The notes under the pieces were generated by a model. That model did not search any database and had not been told where the DNA came from. It saw only the letters and a program-made list of their open reading frames with translations. Source: a virus. From it: a stretch of 24,113 nt of DNA. Numbering within the stretch: position 1 is the first letter of the stretch; every line of letters begins with the position of its first letter. The position numbers were made by a program, and so were the translations under genes. Shown in pieces: positions 3,594 through 24,113 of this stretch. The DNA lies in IMG/VR virus record IMGVR_UViG_3300046028_003045, positions 1 through 24,113 of that record. The stretch is one strand, 5' to 3'.

Positions 3594-3607
3594 AATAATA
3601 TTTATGC
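3590..3607 (-). promoter_or_regulatory. Late promoter octamer and start-codon hairpin of the 468-aa gene
   Basis: CATAAATA (3606-3599), then 5 bases, then the ATG (3593). T4 late geometry puts +1 on the A of ATG. GCATAA and TTATGC form a 6-bp inverted repeat with a 6-base loop, the ATG lying in the 3' arm. Read-through mRNA could hide the AUG; mRNA started at +1 lacks the 5' arm. Confidence 0.5.
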
Positions 3608-3620
3608 CATACTATGCTTG

Positions 3621-4703
3621 TTAGAACGTAGCAATGAACGGCAACGGTTCAATAGAAACATCCTGGTGATCCCGCATTTGCTCGTCAAGATTTTGGTGGT
3701 AACTTTGCAGCACCTGCAACATGCGTACCGCTAGTATGGTGGACATTACAAGATCGTCGGTTTCCCCTATCTTGGCCTGATAACTAGTGCCCACAGCAAC
3801 AAAGTTCTTGAGCTCGGATATAAGAGACGGGCTGTTGATCTTCATTCTATCAGTCTCGACCAGATTCTTTAACTTAGCACAAGCAGCAAGCTTGGGCTTG
3901 TGTGTGGTGTTAAAGCCCTTGCGTGTTCTCCGGGATACGCTTTGTTGAGGATCACTTAGGAAGTAGCCCTTGATGTTTTCTTCTCCGTACTCAGCAATGC
4001 TGATCAGGGCTGCTTCGCCAATGGTGTTGTTCTCTACCGAGTAGTAAATTGTCTTGTCGTCTCGAACAATGTCGTATATGTACTGAATGATGTTGGTAAA
4101 GATTCGAATCTGAGTAGGAATGTCAGTACGATTATGTCTCCACTCGGCCACCTGTTCAGTAGTGTTAGCTTCAAACACTTGGATCGCAGCAGGGTCACCA
4201 CCTGTACCTAGACTTGGATCCAAGGACACGGTATAAATCCTATCCTTGACTGGCTGTTTGTACCATCGTACTTCTCCGGTCTTGAACAAGGGCTCGATGC
4301 CACGTAAGTCAATCAGTTTAGTAGGAGCAATAAGCGTCTCATCATTAATAATAAATTCGCAGTTCGATGATAACAACGAGTTTGTGTAGTATCTATGTCC
4401 GTCTTCAACTTCTATTAGATCGTAAACTGGTTCAATTCTTCCAGTGTCAATAATTGAAGTAACTGATAATTCTCCACTGATACTCAGTACAGTATCGCCT
4501 ATTTGTAAATCACTCACGGGAGTTCTAACTTGATTCCCTGTAAACAATTTGTGATTATTGGTACATTCGAGCCAATAGCCAGCATTAAAATCTAATCGGA
4601 ACACAGAACGATCGCCTACACGTCTAATTCCGGCAAAAGATTTATAACCGTTGGGTGTTAGTACTTTATATCCTCTGGTGTTTTCTTTATATATCATTGC
4701 CAT
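3621..4703 (-). CDS. 17: Terminase large subunit, C-terminal gene: split-intein C-part plus gp17 nuclease
   Basis: Residues 1-114 are an intein C-fragment: YKVLTPNGYKSFAGI (12-26), block B with T48-x-x-H51, LQIGDTVLSI (66-75), VYDLIEVEDGHRYYTN (93-108), ending SSN114. Residue C115 is the +1 nucleophile. Residues 115-360 are the C-extein: CEFIINDETLI, the universal gp17 continuation, then the RNase H-like packaging nuclease with D162 (SLDPSLGTGGD), E224 (SVENNTIGE) and D316/D317 (GETDDLVMS). Trans-splicing with the N-gene would give TerL of 275+246 = 521 residues, close to family size (T4: 610). The ATG has an AAGG Shine-Dalgarno about 8 bases upstream; Met3 is a possible coupled start. An in-frame TAA upstream rules out extension. 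The intein's penultimate residue is Ser, not the usual His. Confidence 0.92.
   Translation of the reverse strand: MAMIYKENTRGYKVLTPNGYKSFAGIRRVGDRSVFRLDFNAGYWLECTNNHKLFTGNQVRTPVSDLQIGDTVLSISGELSVTSIIDTGRIEPVYDLIEVEDGHRYYTNSLLSSNCEFIINDETLIAPTKLIDLRGIEPLFKTGEVRWYKQPVKDRIYTVSLDPSLGTGGDPAAIQVFEANTTEQVAEWRHNRTDIPTQIRIFTNIIQYIYDIVRDDKTIYYSVENNTIGEAALISIAEYGEENIKGYFLSDPQQSVSRRTRKGFNTTHKPKLAACAKLKNLVETDRMKINSPSLISELKNFVAVGTSYQAKIGETDDLVMSTILAVRMLQVLQSYHQNLDEQMRDHQDVSIEPLPFIATF
4362..4703 (-). mobile_element. Split intein, C-terminal fragment (114 residues)
   Basis: The fragment holds the splicing beta-strands following block A, block B (TNNH) and blocks F/G (VYDLIEVEDGHRYYTN...SSN, then Cys). It has no endonuclease domain. 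N-terminal residues MAMIYKENTRG precede the first conserved strand, much as in the AceL-TerL C-fragment, a 25+104-residue atypically split intein in the same protein. Asn114 (codon 4364-4362) would cyclise; Cys115 is the acceptor. Confidence 0.9.
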
Positions 4704-4768
4704 GTTAAAACCTTGTAAGTATTTTTATCTGTGAATAGCCAGACTTTGTAGTGGTATCCAGCAATCAT
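4694..4768 (-). CDS. 24-codon bridging ORF between the split-terminase genes
   Basis: The ATG (4768-4766) overlaps the TGA of the N-gene (ATGA). The TGA (4696-4694) overlaps the ATG of Met3 in the C-gene (ATGA again). The peptide starts MIAGYHYKVWLF and ends NTYKVLTWQ. Its NT.YKVLT resembles NTRGYKVLT at residues 8-16 of the C-gene, so it may be a decayed duplicate of the intein strand. It could serve mainly for translational coupling, or as nothing at all. Whether it is translated is unknown. Confidence 0.4.
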   Translation of the reverse strand: MIAGYHYKVWLFTDKNTYKVLTWQ

Positions 4769-5682
4769 TTGTCTATGACATCAAATAATTGTTCGATTGT
4801 CATGGATATAGTGACGCCGTTTAGTTGTAAATCAATCTCTGTATTACCGTGGCAGCAATCCATCTCTCGACGGAAGCGTTCTGTGCCCAAGGCAGCACGT
4901 TGCTGTTGTGCCCAGGTCTCGTCTCGATCCGGGTGTTCATTCCAAAAGCTACGGTAAGCCTTGAATCCATTCTGTCCAACTGTGGTAGGATTGCCGTATT
5001 CATCCTCACAACGGTTAGCACCTTTCCACAGCAGCGCAAACTGGTCTTCGTCTGAGTTGGGAGTGCTGGTAATAATTGCCTTACCACCTGTGGCTAATGT
5101 AGGGCTAATGGATGTCCAGAACTCCTTGGCGATAGTGGGGCGCACGAATGCAAATTCGTCCGCGTACAGCAGCGAAATACTCATACCCCGGCCGGTGTTT
5201 TCTGTAGTGGTTGCACTGACAATACGGCTACCGTTATCAAACTCCAGGCTGCCCTTGTTGTAACTGGTTACACCTGCACGGATATGATCAGGCACAGACT
5301 CGTATGCATATCTAATACGTTGCATAATTTCCTGGGCACCGGTGTACTTGTGTGCAGCAACCAGGATGGTAGAGTCCGGCACAAACATAGCATGCCATAA
5401 CAGGTAGCCAGCAGCACTGGTGGACTTGCCGGTCTGTCTTGGCATCATCGAGATAGAATATCTGTAGTTGTGATAGGTATCAATTAACCTGTGCTGATAT
5501 TCAAACGGATGATACAGCATACGTCCTTGCGTTGGATGCTGTATATAGAAAAAGTGATCTAAAAAGTAGATAGGTCCGCTTACCGGATCCGCACAGTTGA
5601 CAAATTCCTCAATGTGTGCTTGGGAGTAGGTAGACTTGGCGTGCGGACTTTTAATTAAGACGTTATCTAAATTTTTACTCAT
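4765..5682 (-). CDS. 17: Terminase large subunit, N-terminal gene: gp17 ATPase plus split-intein N-part
   Basis: Residues 1-275 are the packaging ATPase of gp17, the motor that drives DNA into the prohead. Visible are Walker A PRQTGKST (K86), Walker B LLYADEF (D175, E176) and the coupling motif ITSTPN (204-209). The extein ends FRREMD, exactly where gp17 proteins continue with CEF. Residues 276-305 are the intein N-fragment: C276 (Cys1), block A pattern C-x-x-G-N-T-E-I, then a strand and helix (ISMTIEQLFDVID) before TGA. The start overlaps the methyltransferase stop (ATGA), so translation is coupled. Frames differ between this gene and the C-gene, and a stop lies between, so no single frameshift rejoins them. 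Trans-splicing is required for a whole TerL; this is inferred from motif completeness. Confidence 0.93.
   Translation of the reverse strand: MSKNLDNVLIKSPHAKSTYSQAHIEEFVNCADPVSGPIYFLDHFFYIQHPTQGRMLYHPFEYQHRLIDTYHNYRYSISMMPRQTGKSTSAAGYLLWHAMFVPDSTILVAAHKYTGAQEIMQRIRYAYESVPDHIRAGVTSYNKGSLEFDNGSRIVSATTTENTGRGMSISLLYADEFAFVRPTIAKEFWTSISPTLATGGKAIITSTPNSDEDQFALLWKGANRCEDEYGNPTTVGQNGFKAYRSFWNEHPDRDETWAQQQRAALGTERFRREMDCCHGNTEIDLQLNGVTISMTIEQLFDVIDK
4768..4857 (-). mobile_element. Split intein, N-terminal fragment (about 30 residues)
   Basis: CCHGNTEIDLQLNG... starts at the codon 4857-4855. Taking the first Cys as residue 1 gives C-x-x-G-N-T, matching block A (compare C-x-x-G-D-T in AceL-TerL), and yields a spliced junction EMD-CEF with no extra residue. 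At 30 residues it is far shorter than the roughly 100-residue N-parts of canonical split inteins. Confidence 0.9.
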
Positions 5683-7462: not shown

Positions 7463-7490
7463 GCATCTATTTAATGGATAGTTACTGTGC
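7443..7490 (-). promoter_or_regulatory. Late promoter inside a start-codon hairpin, radical SAM gene
   Basis: In mRNA sense GCACAGTAAC (7490-7481) pairs perfectly with GTTACTGTGC (7452-7443). Inside, TCCAT (7478-7474) pairs with ATGGA (7462-7458), which contains the start codon. The octamer ATTAAATA (7475-7468) lies in the loop side, 5 bases before the ATG, so +1 is predicted at 7462. Read-through mRNA buries the AUG; mRNA from this promoter lacks the 5' arms. Confidence 0.6.
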
Positions 7491-12577: not shown

Positions 12578-13073
12578 TACTCTTCCCCAGTATCTGACGC
12601 AGTAGTTCGTTGCGGTCAAGTACATGGCCTTGCCCAGTGGGGTGCTCTACAGAGTCCCCAGCTAGGTCTCGATCTAGCTTGACTTTTTTAAGTTGCAACT
12701 CAATCATCTTGAGCTTTTTATTAAGCTTGGCATTCTTTGCTGTGATAGCATGGCCTAGCATTTGACTTGCCACGTTGAAGATTTCTGAAGCATAGCGGCT
12801 GTCAACATTCATCCCTAGGTCCATTAGATTGTCAAAGCTTTCGGTGGCTTTTAACGCCAGGTCATCCATCTCTTGGTCACTGGACTCAAGCCCTCGCACT
12901 GCCGGCAAGGCTGCTTCAATCTTGTCCAGTGCATCTAATGTTTCGGGAAGAATGGTTAGCTGTGTTTGTATATCATCGGTGTGGGCGGGCACACCTGGTT
13001 CAATATCACTACTATCCTGGTCACGGGGTAGGTTGAACAACGCCTCAAGGTTTTTGTTGGTTGGAAGGGACAT
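12570..13073 (-). CDS. 16: Terminase small subunit gp16
   Basis: This 167-residue protein resembles T4 gp16 (164 residues), which forms rings that recognise concatemer DNA and regulate gp17. Diagnostic segments are ALDKIEAALPAVRGLESSDQEMDDLA (compare T4 'VDRIEAALPEV...DAELDSLA') and ESFDNLMDLGMNVDSRYASEIFNVASQML, then a coiled-coil-like NKKLKMIELQLKKVKLDRDL. It lies more than 5 kb before the gp17 gene pair instead of next to it as in T4. There is no Shine-Dalgarno; ATTAAATA ends 4 bases before the ATG, so a leaderless or near-leaderless late mRNA is possible. An endonuclease gene ends 7 bases upstream. Confidence 0.88.
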   Translation of the reverse strand: MSLPTNKNLEALFNLPRDQDSSDIEPGVPAHTDDIQTQLTILPETLDALDKIEAALPAVRGLESSDQEMDDLALKATESFDNLMDLGMNVDSRYASEIFNVASQMLGHAITAKNAKLNKKLKMIELQLKKVKLDRDLAGDSVEHPTGQGHVLDRNELLRQILGKSNV

Positions 13074-13077
13074 AGCA

Positions 13078-13085
13078 TATTTAAT
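13078..13085 (-). promoter_or_regulatory. Late promoter octamer directly before the gp16 start
   Basis: ATTAAATA, then TGCT, then ATG. The spacing is 4 bases, one less than the exact leaderless geometry seen at four other genes; +1 would fall on or within one base of the AUG. The octamer overlaps the last codons of the endonuclease gene. Confidence 0.45.
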
Positions 13086-13680
13086 GAGTTAATTTGCATG
13101 ATTCAAAGTCTTTGCGATGTTGCAGAGAATATTTGACCTTAGCCCATGAGATGTTTAATCGTTTAGAAATTTGTAGATTGTTTAGCCCAGCATCGTGCAA
13201 AGAAATAATCTGTAATGCAATGGTTAAATTTTTTTGTATGTAAGTATTCAGAGTAGATTGACGCTTTGAATTGGTCCAAGATTTACCTTTTCTTGCGTTT
13301 GCTGCTTTAAGACAATTATCTAATCTAGTTTGGATTGCTTTTTTAGTCCAAGTTTTAGATTTTTGATATTGTTTAATTTTTTCTTTAGTCGATGATAACA
13401 TTTTACCAGAGCCGCCATCCCCGGTTTCTGGTTTTAAATTAGCCCATGCATCATCAACAACAACATTCCATAAGTCACTGTAATACTGTCCCCAATATTT
13501 TACGTCGTTATTAGTTTGGCATTCTTTAAGAATTTCAGTGGTTACATCATTTCCGTGTTTTGATAGATGACGGCACCAGTATATGCCAGATCCTTTGTAC
13601 TTGTATGGATTTTGTATTGTTTTGCCCAGGTATTTTAACCCAGTTTTGTTATGTGTTTTCACATAGAGATAAGTAGGCAT
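13081..13680 (-). CDS. GIY-YIG-like homing endonuclease
   Basis: I start at MPTYLYVKTHNKTGLKYLGKT because AAGGAG lies 8 bases upstream; the longer frame would read through that Shine-Dalgarno sequence. In this 199-residue protein YLYVK...TGLKYLGKT takes the place of the GIY...YIG strands, with YKGSGIYWCRHLSKHG next, as in phage free-standing endonucleases of this variant. A Lys-rich linker follows (STKEKIKQYQKSKTW, ARKGKSWTNSKRQSTLN), and a C-terminal helix-turn-helix (LNNLQISKRLNISWAKVKYSLQ) for DNA binding. The gene is AT-rich against its neighbours and lies between gp4 and gp16, a typical site for a mobile endonuclease acting on an allele lacking it. Cleavage activity is inferred. Confidence 0.75.
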   Translation of the reverse strand: MPTYLYVKTHNKTGLKYLGKTIQNPYKYKGSGIYWCRHLSKHGNDVTTEILKECQTNNDVKYWGQYYSDLWNVVVDDAWANLKPETGDGGSGKMLSSTKEKIKQYQKSKTWTKKAIQTRLDNCLKAANARKGKSWTNSKRQSTLNTYIQKNLTIALQIISLHDAGLNNLQISKRLNISWAKVKYSLQHRKDFESCKLTH

Positions 13681-13740
13681 GCTGATTGCTCCTTCCAAGC
13701 ATTAGAGTAGTTGGATATTCCCGTATCGCGAACTACACCT

Positions 13741-19957: not shown

Positions 19958-19965
19958 GGTAAATA
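19958..19965 (+). promoter_or_regulatory. Late promoter octamer for the plus-strand HNH gene, leaderless geometry
   Basis: GGTAAATA, then TCAAT, then ATG at 19971. Exactly 5 bases separate octamer and ATG and there is no Shine-Dalgarno. This is the only such site seen in use on the plus strand. Confidence 0.55.
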
Positions 19966-21993: not shown

Positions 21994-22524
21994 TTAAAGC
22001 AGAGCCTTGACTTGTAAAAATTCCAGTGCGTCGTGCAGAAGATCTATCTGCCTGCGGCAGTCCTCTAACGCATGATGGCTAGCAGGGTACTTGTTTAAAG
22101 AGGGGCAAAGGCTGTACACAGTTCGTGAGTCTCGTACCGAATAGTACTTCCAGGGCATGTTGATCTTGTGGCTCTTGTAGGCGTGCTCCAAGATAGTAGC
22201 ATCAAAAGTCGGACCGAGCGCCCAAAAATGTTTGCTTTGCCAAATCAGCACTCCTAATTCTTCAAGAGCTTGTGCCAAGGGGATGCGGCCTTCTTCACCA
22301 AACGCTTCGTCCTTGGCAGCAGCAGGTTGAGTAGCCCACCAGTCAATAGTGCTTTGCTCGATATTTCGATCAGGCTGGCTATCAATGCTGATGCGAGCAT
22401 AGTACGATCTAAGCTGTTTGTGCGGGCGCCTAACCAACGGATCAAAGCACTGGGCCGCAATAGTTAAAATACAGGCGTCGGGGCCTGTGCCGCAAGTTTC
22501 AAGGTCTACCATACAATCTGCCAT
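21994..22524 (-). CDS. DnaQ-like 3'-5' exonuclease (DexA-type)
   Basis: This 176-residue protein has the DEDDh nuclease motifs: D7 and E9 (MVDLETCGTG), a middle motif GPTFDATILEHAY, and a C-terminal HHALEDCRRQ with the His and last Asp. It resembles the family of T4 DexA (exonuclease A, 227 residues) and related bacterial 3'-5' exoribonucleases; whether DNA or RNA is the substrate cannot be told. A consensus sigma70 promoter stands immediately before the first ATG, with the TATAAT only 5 bases away and no Shine-Dalgarno. Met5 is the alternative start (MVDLETCG). It heads an operon with the glycosyltransferase-like gene and dNMP kinase, consistent with early expression. Confidence 0.85.
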   Translation of the reverse strand: MADCMVDLETCGTGPDACILTIAAQCFDPLVRRPHKQLRSYYARISIDSQPDRNIEQSTIDWWATQPAAAKDEAFGEEGRIPLAQALEELGVLIWQSKHFWALGPTFDATILEHAYKSHKINMPWKYYSVRDSRTVYSLCPSLNKYPASHHALEDCRRQIDLLHDALEFLQVKALL

Positions 22525-22529
22525 GCTGC

Positions 22530-22558
22530 ATTATAGCAGTATCACATTTGATTGTCAA
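22530..22558 (-). promoter_or_regulatory. Perfect-consensus sigma70 promoter
   Basis: TTGACA (22558-22553), 17 bases, TATAAT (22535-22530): all 12 consensus positions match at optimal spacing. The -35 lies inside the end of the HNH endonuclease gene. It directs transcription into the exonuclease, glycosyltransferase-like and kinase genes. Predicted +1 is at or within a base or two of the exonuclease ATG (22524). Confidence 0.88.
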
Positions 22559-23345
22559 AGTCTTCGAACAATTGTTCCTTGGTTTTATCGCATCTCATAC
22601 CTTTTTGTGAGTTGTTCGATAAAGATATTACACGCAGATTTGACCAATGTCCGATTATATACGGTGGTATGTTGTCCCTAAATCCTTGTTGAATGCTGTA
22701 AATATGATCCAGGGCATTTTTACTACGGTTAAGTCTATTTGGATTTATTTTGTTAAACTGAGTTTTCCAGTTCTCTTCGGACACTTGCCAAACAGCATCG
22801 TAATATAATCTACGTAACGATCTCAAATGCTTAGGTGTAGCACCGTTACTAATTCTTTTATCTGAAACTTTTTTTCTTGCTTCATTAGTTTTACTACCGT
22901 TTTCAACACCGTATCGTTCTAGGCAAGTTTGTTTAGATTTTTCTCTGTCAGCTGATGTATATGTAGATTTATCTCTATACTTTCTACCATTAGCTACTGC
23001 TTTTAGATTGCTTAGCCGATTTTTTTCTCTAGCCGACTGCGAATAACAGTTAGCAAAATCACCTCTGTTTGCTTGAAACTTTCCCTTAGCAGAACGACTA
23101 GATGTGATCAGATATCTATTTTCCCACCATTTAACCGGGATTTGTGTAATCGGGCATAAAGGTATTGACCATACATCATTAAGTATGTGCCAAAATCGTT
23201 GTTTGGGTTTTGCAGATTCTGGAAGGAATTCAGTTGTCTTTATAATCCGTTCCCAGAGTTCAGGATGCGTTTTATAAAGATATCTTGTTGCCGATTTATT
23301 ATAAGAAGTGTCGTTGTTGATAATGGATAAGAGTATGGATTTCAT
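22542..23345 (-). CDS. HNH-type free-standing homing endonuclease
   Basis: I take the start MKSILLSIINNDTSYNKSATRYLY (267 residues) because it lies 5 bases after ACTAAATA and the longer frame would run back into the neck gene. The middle has LERYGVENGSKTNEARKKVSDKRISNG, the DNA-binding repeat type found in phage endonucleases. The nuclease core is ALDHIYSIQQGFRDNIPPYIIGHWSNLRVISLSNNSQKG: D-H, then H, then N..N, an HNH/His-Me finger. The gene is markedly AT-rich and sits between the neck gene and the exonuclease, splitting what look like late and early blocks. Its start codon is inside a perfect 11-bp hairpin containing the late promoter. Confidence 0.82.
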   Translation of the reverse strand: MKSILLSIINNDTSYNKSATRYLYKTHPELWERIIKTTEFLPESAKPKQRFWHILNDVWSIPLCPITQIPVKWWENRYLITSSRSAKGKFQANRGDFANCYSQSAREKNRLSNLKAVANGRKYRDKSTYTSADREKSKQTCLERYGVENGSKTNEARKKVSDKRISNGATPKHLRSLRRLYYDAVWQVSEENWKTQFNKINPNRLNRSKNALDHIYSIQQGFRDNIPPYIIGHWSNLRVISLSNNSQKGMRCDKTKEQLFEDFDNQM

Positions 23346-23358
23346 ACTCTTATTTAGT
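23327..23358 (-). promoter_or_regulatory. Late promoter and start-codon hairpin of the HNH endonuclease
   Basis: ATAAGAGTATG (23353-23343) pairs perfectly with CATACTCTTAT (23337-23327) around a 5-base loop. The ATG (23345-23343) closes the 5' arm, and ACTAAATA (23358-23351) overlaps its start. +1 is predicted on the ATG, so late mRNA would lack eight bases of the 5' arm. A second octamer-like GTTAAATA lies at 23385-23378. Confidence 0.65.
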
Positions 23359-23380
23359 CTTATCCTACTACAAACGTTAT

Positions 23381-24113
23381 TTAACCAATTACAAGTGTTA
23401 GAGGGGCACTGCCATCTACATACAGGTACAGATCTGCAATACATCTATCCATCATAGCTTGGCCTTCTGATTTCATAGCAGTGCCGTTTAAGGTGCCGCC
23501 GCCCTGTGGACCAGCAATTGTTCCGAACTTTTCACGAGCTTCGCCGATAATGTACTTGGCTGCACCCACCATGTGATCCCGTACCCACTGGCTGATCTGG
23601 AAGTCAGCTAACATTGTAATTTCGGGTTTGAGATTATAGGACCAAAGCAACACCACTTCGCCAGTGCCTTTGGGGTCGCGGATCAGTTGAAGTTTCTTGG
23701 TTACTGGATTCCATGTATAGTTGATATAGCCGCCAAACATTCGGGCTGCCAGTTCAACATACTGCTGATAGAAGTCGTAAGTGGCCAGGCCGCCTTGAGA
23801 GTTAAAGTTCATCAAGTACACATTGAGCGATGCTGCACCGAACGGGTCAAAGCTGTTGGTGCCGCCGCCGGTGCTGAGGCCAATTGTACGTCTAAAAATT
23901 TGCCGTACCTGAATAACTTCCTGCGGCAAGGTGTATTCATTAACGTCATTCAAGAGCTGCATAAAGCTATAGCTCTCTTCGTAGGCGTTTTGTGCCCGCT
24001 GTCGATACACACCTATTGTGCGTTGATATGCTGCTTCGTAGTGTGCAGGATCCAGCTCAATGTCAACAATCAGACTACCGAGCTGGAGTTGCACATATTC
24101 AATTAGCTGTTTT
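23381..24113 (-). CDS. 13: Neck protein, gp13-like (5' end beyond window)
   Basis: The frame is open to the right edge: upstream of the GTG at 24094 the codons KQLIEY continue, so this is a partial gene of at least 244 codons. The beginning KQLIEYVQLQLGSLIVDIEL resembles the N-termini of T4-like gp13. The end is characteristic of the marine neck proteins: VLLWSYNLKPEITML, WVRDHMVGAAKYIIGEAREKFGTIAGPQGGGTLNGTAMKSEG. In T4 gp13 (309 residues) and gp14 form the neck that joins head and tail. The HNH gene and then the exonuclease follow. The assignment to gp13 is by pattern; a related neck or connector protein is the alternative. Confidence 0.75.
   Translation of the reverse strand, partial: KQLIEYVQLQLGSLIVDIELDPAHYEAAYQRTIGVYRQRAQNAYEESYSFMQLLNDVNEYTLPQEVIQVRQIFRRTIGLSTGGGTNSFDPFGAASLNVYLMNFNSQGGLATYDFYQQYVELAARMFGGYINYTWNPVTKKLQLIRDPKGTGEVVLLWSYNLKPEITMLADFQISQWVRDHMVGAAKYIIGEAREKFGTIAGPQGGGTLNGTAMKSEGQAMMDRCIADLYLYVDGSAPLTLVIG

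Follow-up and report, generated by a model that had tools for sequence, protein, structure and literature searches.

The HNH gene and its surroundings

The window analysed here, a stretch of 24,113 nucleotides, is a 24-kb incomplete fragment from an uncultured jumbo-type myovirus (IMG/VR record G000) whose neck protein is related, by protein comparison, to those of phages Atu_ph07, PA5oct and XaC1; tail sheath, tail tube, terminase and ssDNA-binding genes are also encoded in it. On the minus strand an open reading frame of 267 codons (22542–23345), which has matches to phrog_5104 and phrog_3339 and 80 homologous loci, sits between an exonuclease gene (start at 22524) and the neck (head-tail adaptor Ad2) gene (23381–24113, minus strand, stop at 23381, open at the window end), the latter recognised by phrog_211 and its homologues. 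We take the 267-aa product to be probably a homing-endonuclease-like HNH protein from the PHROG matches of family members, 13 of 15 of which match phrog_3339 (homing endonuclease) and one endonuclease VII. Pfam and PDB sequence searches of the HNH protein returned a sub-threshold DUF7487 match and no solved relative, and an AF2 model searched with Foldseek gave weak Cas9-HNH matches, none of them significant. At the DNA level the gene was found in no cultured phage of the collection searched, and outside uncultured phages the protein-level matches were short ones in Campylobacter phages.

The start codon of the HNH gene lies in a hairpin whose 5′ arm, ATAAGAGTATG (23343–23353, minus strand), ends with the ATG itself (23345–23343) and is perfectly complementary over 11 bp to the 3′ arm, CATACTCTTAT (23327–23337), which codes for residues 3–6; a 5-nt loop, AAATC (23338–23342), separates the two. 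A T4-type late promoter motif, ACTAAATA (23351–23358, minus strand), overlaps the 5′ arm in the outermost 3 bases of that arm, and 5 nt separate its end from the ATG. The letters of the window place hairpin, late-promoter-like motif and AUG exactly as a preliminary description of this DNA had claimed, including the overlap of the motif with the outer end of the 5′ arm. No Shine-Dalgarno sequence was found at normal spacing before this AUG, the nearest GGA lying well over 10 nt upstream. The RNA of 23380–23297 folds with −18.2 kcal/mol (z = −3.8 versus dinucleotide shuffles). Further perfect inverted repeats of 12–14 bp with short spacers are present in the window, and a motif count found no enrichment of CTAAATA there (5 observed, 3.4 expected), so the window alone would not prove much; judged in it, the 11-bp hairpin is only moderately unusual, and it is the evidence from the HNH family that raises it far above chance.

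That family was collected in steps. A first protein search gave 11 close relatives, all with identical layout, and a DNA pattern derived from them matched 73 IMG/VR stretches, almost all being starts of HNH family genes; the matches L105/L116/L123 and L161 belong to unrelated genes that lack the extended pairing. An alignment-based protein search, run against the bias of the pattern, gave 80 loci; these contain 51 distinct starts, and 22 of the starts lie outside the DNA pattern. The protein-search starts and the pattern loci make up 59 distinct HNH start regions, all directly behind a neck gene, and TAAATA about 5 nt before the AUG plus a hairpin over the AUG are found in nearly all family members. 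Every contig used is metagenomic, and the family is described as one of freshwater giant phages. At the empty sites L013–L017 the neck protein is 96–99% identical, and HNH gene and hairpin are both missing; comparison of these sequences shows the hairpin to be tied to the mobile gene.

The stretch from the neck stop to TAAATA contains a degenerate duplicate of the neck gene 3′ end (ACGTTTGTAGTAGGATAA, 23360–23377, minus strand), recognised by its similarity to the last 18 nt of the neck gene (23381–23398), the first copy. In relatives the GG of this second copy stands 8–13 nt before TAAATA, and its positions 1, 2, 4 and 8 show the conservation seen in the real neck end (GG and T having defined the anchor). 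It is hardly closer to its own neck end (0.62) than to those of others (0.59), and is therefore probably old, not re-created with every insertion; an insertion scar and a homing-site-like operator are both conceivable. A bypass of the T4 gene 60 type, considered for the GG(A/T)-TAA duplication, was rejected because landing at the second copy meets a stop at once.

An open reading frame of the window resembling a GIY-YIG endonuclease (MPTYLYVKTHNKTGLKYLGKT) occupies 13081–13698 (minus strand), and no hairpin like that of the HNH gene was noticed at its start. The terminase large subunit gene (3621–5682, minus strand) is split, with an intein-splicing match at 3621–4703 and an intein-like stretch that looks interrupted near 4703–4765; the relative G002 has, at 26681, an uninterrupted terminase frame that contains the intein.

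Late promoters, predicted leaderless starts and read-through

In two large relatives, G001 (333 kb) and G002 (328 kb), TAAATA lies exactly 5 nt before the ATG of 22 and 19 genes, respectively, and the counts at other distances are at most 8 anywhere and at most 7 outside 4–6 nt. Among the genes so arranged are those for terminase, tail tube and a head protein as well as the neck gene, all with late functions, and several of the TAAATA promoters of G002 come directly after intrinsic terminators, so that no leader could fit in between. Of the 11 records, 7 encode a gp55-type late sigma (phrog_234), among them every record of 197 kb or more; it is absent from the incomplete 24-kb window, where the T4-type assignment is made through the relatives. 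In T4, late transcription begins about 6 nt downstream of TATAAATA. Motif position, spacing and the gp55-type sigma thus make ACTAAATA a predicted late promoter overlapping the 5′ arm, and the predicted 5′ end of its transcript is the A of the ATG (23345) or no more than one base away from it. From the spacing and the terminators just upstream, late mRNAs of these phages are predicted to be leaderless, and the combination of late promoter and leaderless start appears to be general in them, which indicates that, in a large group of uncultured phages, many late genes have their promoter fused to their start codon.

Three more genes of the window have TAAATA 5 nt before the ATG and one has it at 4 nt. 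On the minus strand the motif stands 4–5 nt before the ATG of a virion structural gene (3599–3604) and of a radical SAM-like gene (7468–7473), and at 13078–13083 it precedes an open reading frame starting at 13073; on the plus strand it precedes, at 19960–19965, an open reading frame (MRPLCKxC...) that is conserved in relatives. The start of the exonuclease gene (22522–22535, minus strand) reads TGCTATAAT-GCAGC-ATG, an arrangement conserved in the empty-site relatives L013–L017; its sigma70-like −10 element also has 5-nt spacing, which suggests a leaderless exonuclease mRNA from a host-type promoter.

Translation without a Shine-Dalgarno sequence requires an unstructured start with an unfolded AUG (PMC3121790). 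Folded from +1, the HNH mRNA is unstructured (~0 kcal/mol), and in fold computations most of the hairpin persists in mRNA that starts at −4 or upstream, so that the mechanism depends on the exact transcript start. The earlier claim that a late mRNA beginning at the AUG would lose the 5′ arm is supported, as a prediction, by the TAAATA spacing and by this fold. Starts of the other TAAATA-N5-ATG genes fold with a mean of −3.3 kcal/mol versus −8.5 for HNH starts, a low level of structure that is consistent with a role of the HNH hairpin as an insulator (below). A 108-aa gene of unknown function in G002 (position 259215; L195:19215, plus strand) also has a 15-bp hairpin over TAAATA and AUG (−15.3 kcal/mol), so the endonuclease may not be the only gene with such a device.

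What mRNA enters the HNH gene from upstream bears directly on what the hairpin could do. The preliminary description had proposed the T4 logic in which early transcripts hide the start and late ones open it. In a switch like that of I-TevI and gene e, the AUG would be concealed on read-through mRNA of the early or middle period, and late mRNA alone would be translated. The anatomy does match that of I-TevI, mobE and gene e, and the neck gene belongs, in the window and in PA5oct, to a long row of genes on the same strand, which leaves early read-through possible. However, in 45 of 51 relatives TAAATA precedes the neck gene, which is surrounded by structural genes; given this late motif, read-through mRNA from the neck gene into the endonuclease is probably late too, at least partly. 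The start hairpin with its compensatory changes (below), the promoter motif at the 5′ arm and the predicted loss of that arm are supported; the early-hidden, late-open logic becomes doubtful, and we consider such a switch improbable, though the best of the alternatives. What the hairpin tells apart is more likely read-through mRNA of the neck gene and mRNA from the promoter of the HNH gene itself than early and late mRNA. Many relatives (L209, L214, L217, L228, L230 and L266) also have a stem-loop just after the late motif of the neck gene, with a GGAG Shine-Dalgarno sequence in or near the loop (e.g., TAAATACTGGGGCAAGGAGCCCCAGTATG in L217); each may be a 5′-terminal ribosome-binding hairpin.

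Pairing over the start codon across the family

The mean fold of the 59 start regions is −8.2 kcal/mol in the native sequences and −3.2 kcal/mol after synonymous recoding, and 42 of them fall within the best 5% of their synonymous recodings. When 5′ arms were swapped between arm classes the mean went from −8.3 (native) to −4.3 kcal/mol, native arms being better than swapped ones in 12 of 14 classes. In pair counts over the same 59 regions 80% of cells are paired, and 58 double-change cells keep pairing versus a shuffled mean of 19 (the shuffles ignore relatedness) and 4–13 for slid partners; the covariation score is 0.242 versus 0.102. Pair −4/+15 occurs as UA, AU, GC, GU, CG and UG and pair −5/+16 as AU, CG, GC and GU, and on a tree built from the endonuclease proteins minus their first 8 residues the pair type changes at least 15 and at least 19 times, respectively. 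Among independent pairs at −4/+15 about 4.4 of 5 point in the same direction and none in the opposite one, a number of pairs with which a sign test cannot reach 0.05. Compensatory changes in homologues, which the preliminary description had named as a way to check the hairpin, were thus found in the recoding, swap, pair-count and tree tests, and their position inside coding sequence gives the hairpin strong evolutionary support.

The 22 starts that fall outside the DNA pattern are the most telling members. The core AGTATGAAAnnYATACT is largely conserved in the family, and the arms stay complementary even where amino acids 3–6 differ. In L277–L280, where the codons now read MKTTL, a 10-bp stem persists in a shifted register, and in L284 the stem measures 9 bp and the AUG sits in the loop. 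The arms of L259 and L281 are AATATG/CATATT, GCAAT pairs with ATTGT in L274, and a U-G pair is kept at an Ile to Met change in L219 and L287. The exceptions are L218, which has an ATT start and no stem, L270 and L272, which have a weak upstream fold only, and L228; four sequences (L223/L248 and L243/L256) have one stem mismatch. RNAalifold gave no consensus structure for all 59 sequences because of the register-shifted members, and for the 46 sequences in the main register it recovers the hairpin at −8.1 kcal/mol. By these computations a conserved RNA hairpin covers the translation start.

Could the inverted repeat instead be a DNA operator, bound over the late promoter by a dimer of the endonuclease or of another repressor, with the RNA hairpin incidental? 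The repeat overlaps the promoter, I-TevI binds an operator, a mimic of its homing site, at its own late promoter (PMC2988022), and a symmetric DNA site would likewise give paired changes. In the five large arm classes, however, the half-site sequence varies while complementarity is kept, and register and loop shift in L277–L280 and L284. In addition, G-U cells outnumber A-C cells by 29 to 13, an excess that favours RNA over DNA and that synonymous C/T choice in codon 3 inflates. We judge an operator of this kind to be rather unlikely.

Less likely still is that the hairpin forms the 3′ end of the neck mRNA, as a terminator or an RNase processing element, and overlaps the start codon only secondarily. 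It lies 28 nt downstream of the neck stop in the window, and a processing cut could also yield a leaderless mRNA; but no U-tract was found after it on the coding strand of the window, empty neck loci lack it, its pairing is kept with endonuclease codons, and its distance to the ATG is fixed while that from neck stop to ATG varies between 33 and 60 nt. Finally, a functionless chance repeat spread by shared descent of a short start sequence, which similar-sized inverted repeats elsewhere in the window and the conserved core might suggest, is very improbable given the covariation and the pairing conserved despite amino-acid changes, and in its bare form, as chance only, it was rejected on the recoding and swap tests.

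A proposed insulator and its known counterparts

We propose, with a probability of roughly two in three, that the hairpin is a cis-acting RNA switch or insulator of a mobile HNH gene that lies behind a late neck gene. An mRNA running through from the neck gene would have both arms, and its AUG would be paired and untranslated. Another mRNA would come from the late promoter, the −10 motif of which also forms the outer part of the 5′ arm; to judge from the promoter spacing, this mRNA would begin at the AUG or no more than one base away and, lacking the 5′ arm, would be unstructured and translated as a leaderless message. In this way the hairpin would shield an endonuclease that is potentially harmful against late transcription from the neighbouring gene, so that its level is set by its own promoter alone; more speculatively, the endonuclease might repress itself through the adjoining copy of the neck end. 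Against insulation, an internal AUG without a Shine-Dalgarno sequence might be poorly used on read-through mRNA even if it were free of the hairpin. A more specific form of the proposal, to which we give slightly less than even odds, is that the device senses the 5′ end, such that in phages with leaderless late mRNAs the endonuclease is translated only if its AUG is the very 5′ end of the mRNA, upstream and promoter bases otherwise pairing with the gene's own codons. If a homing-site copy also served as operator, an insulator that senses the 5′ end would make the gene blind to late transcription around it. The hairpin suggests a selfish gene that brings along its own protection against read-through expression.

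The anatomy bears out the resemblance to I-TevI and gene e that had been noted at the outset. I-TevI, I-TevII, I-TevIII, segB and Aeh1 mobE have a late promoter in the 5′ arm of a start-covering hairpin and a late mRNA without that arm; in these T4-like homing endonucleases the hairpin conceals a Shine-Dalgarno sequence some 8 nt upstream of the AUG, and the silenced mRNA is early or middle (PMC2988022). The HNH gene shares the start-covering hairpin, a predicted late promoter that overlaps its 5′ arm and a late mRNA predicted to lack the arm; it differs in that it has no normally spaced Shine-Dalgarno sequence, the AUG itself is paired, the mRNA is predicted to be leaderless and the gene upstream is itself probably late. 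In T4 genes e and soc, a lysis and a capsid gene, long transcripts hide the start and late-promoter transcripts free it, and the late mRNA keeps a leader with a ribosome-binding site (PMC3014915), whereas the HNH hairpin is tied to a mobile gene and its mRNA is predicted to be leaderless. As with the I-TevI operator, a sequence resembling the presumed target adjoins the late promoter, although the putative HNH operator is deduced solely from the degenerate duplicate of the neck end. The cultured jumbo phage CBB has the published late motif ATAAATA (PMC5259590); the TAAATA core is common to this motif, to the T4-type TATAAATA and to the present phages, whose relatives encode a gp55-type sigma, but here the motif lies about 5 nt before many start codons, implying leaderless late mRNAs. 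The HNH hairpin would thus extend the classic T4 device to leaderless mRNAs.
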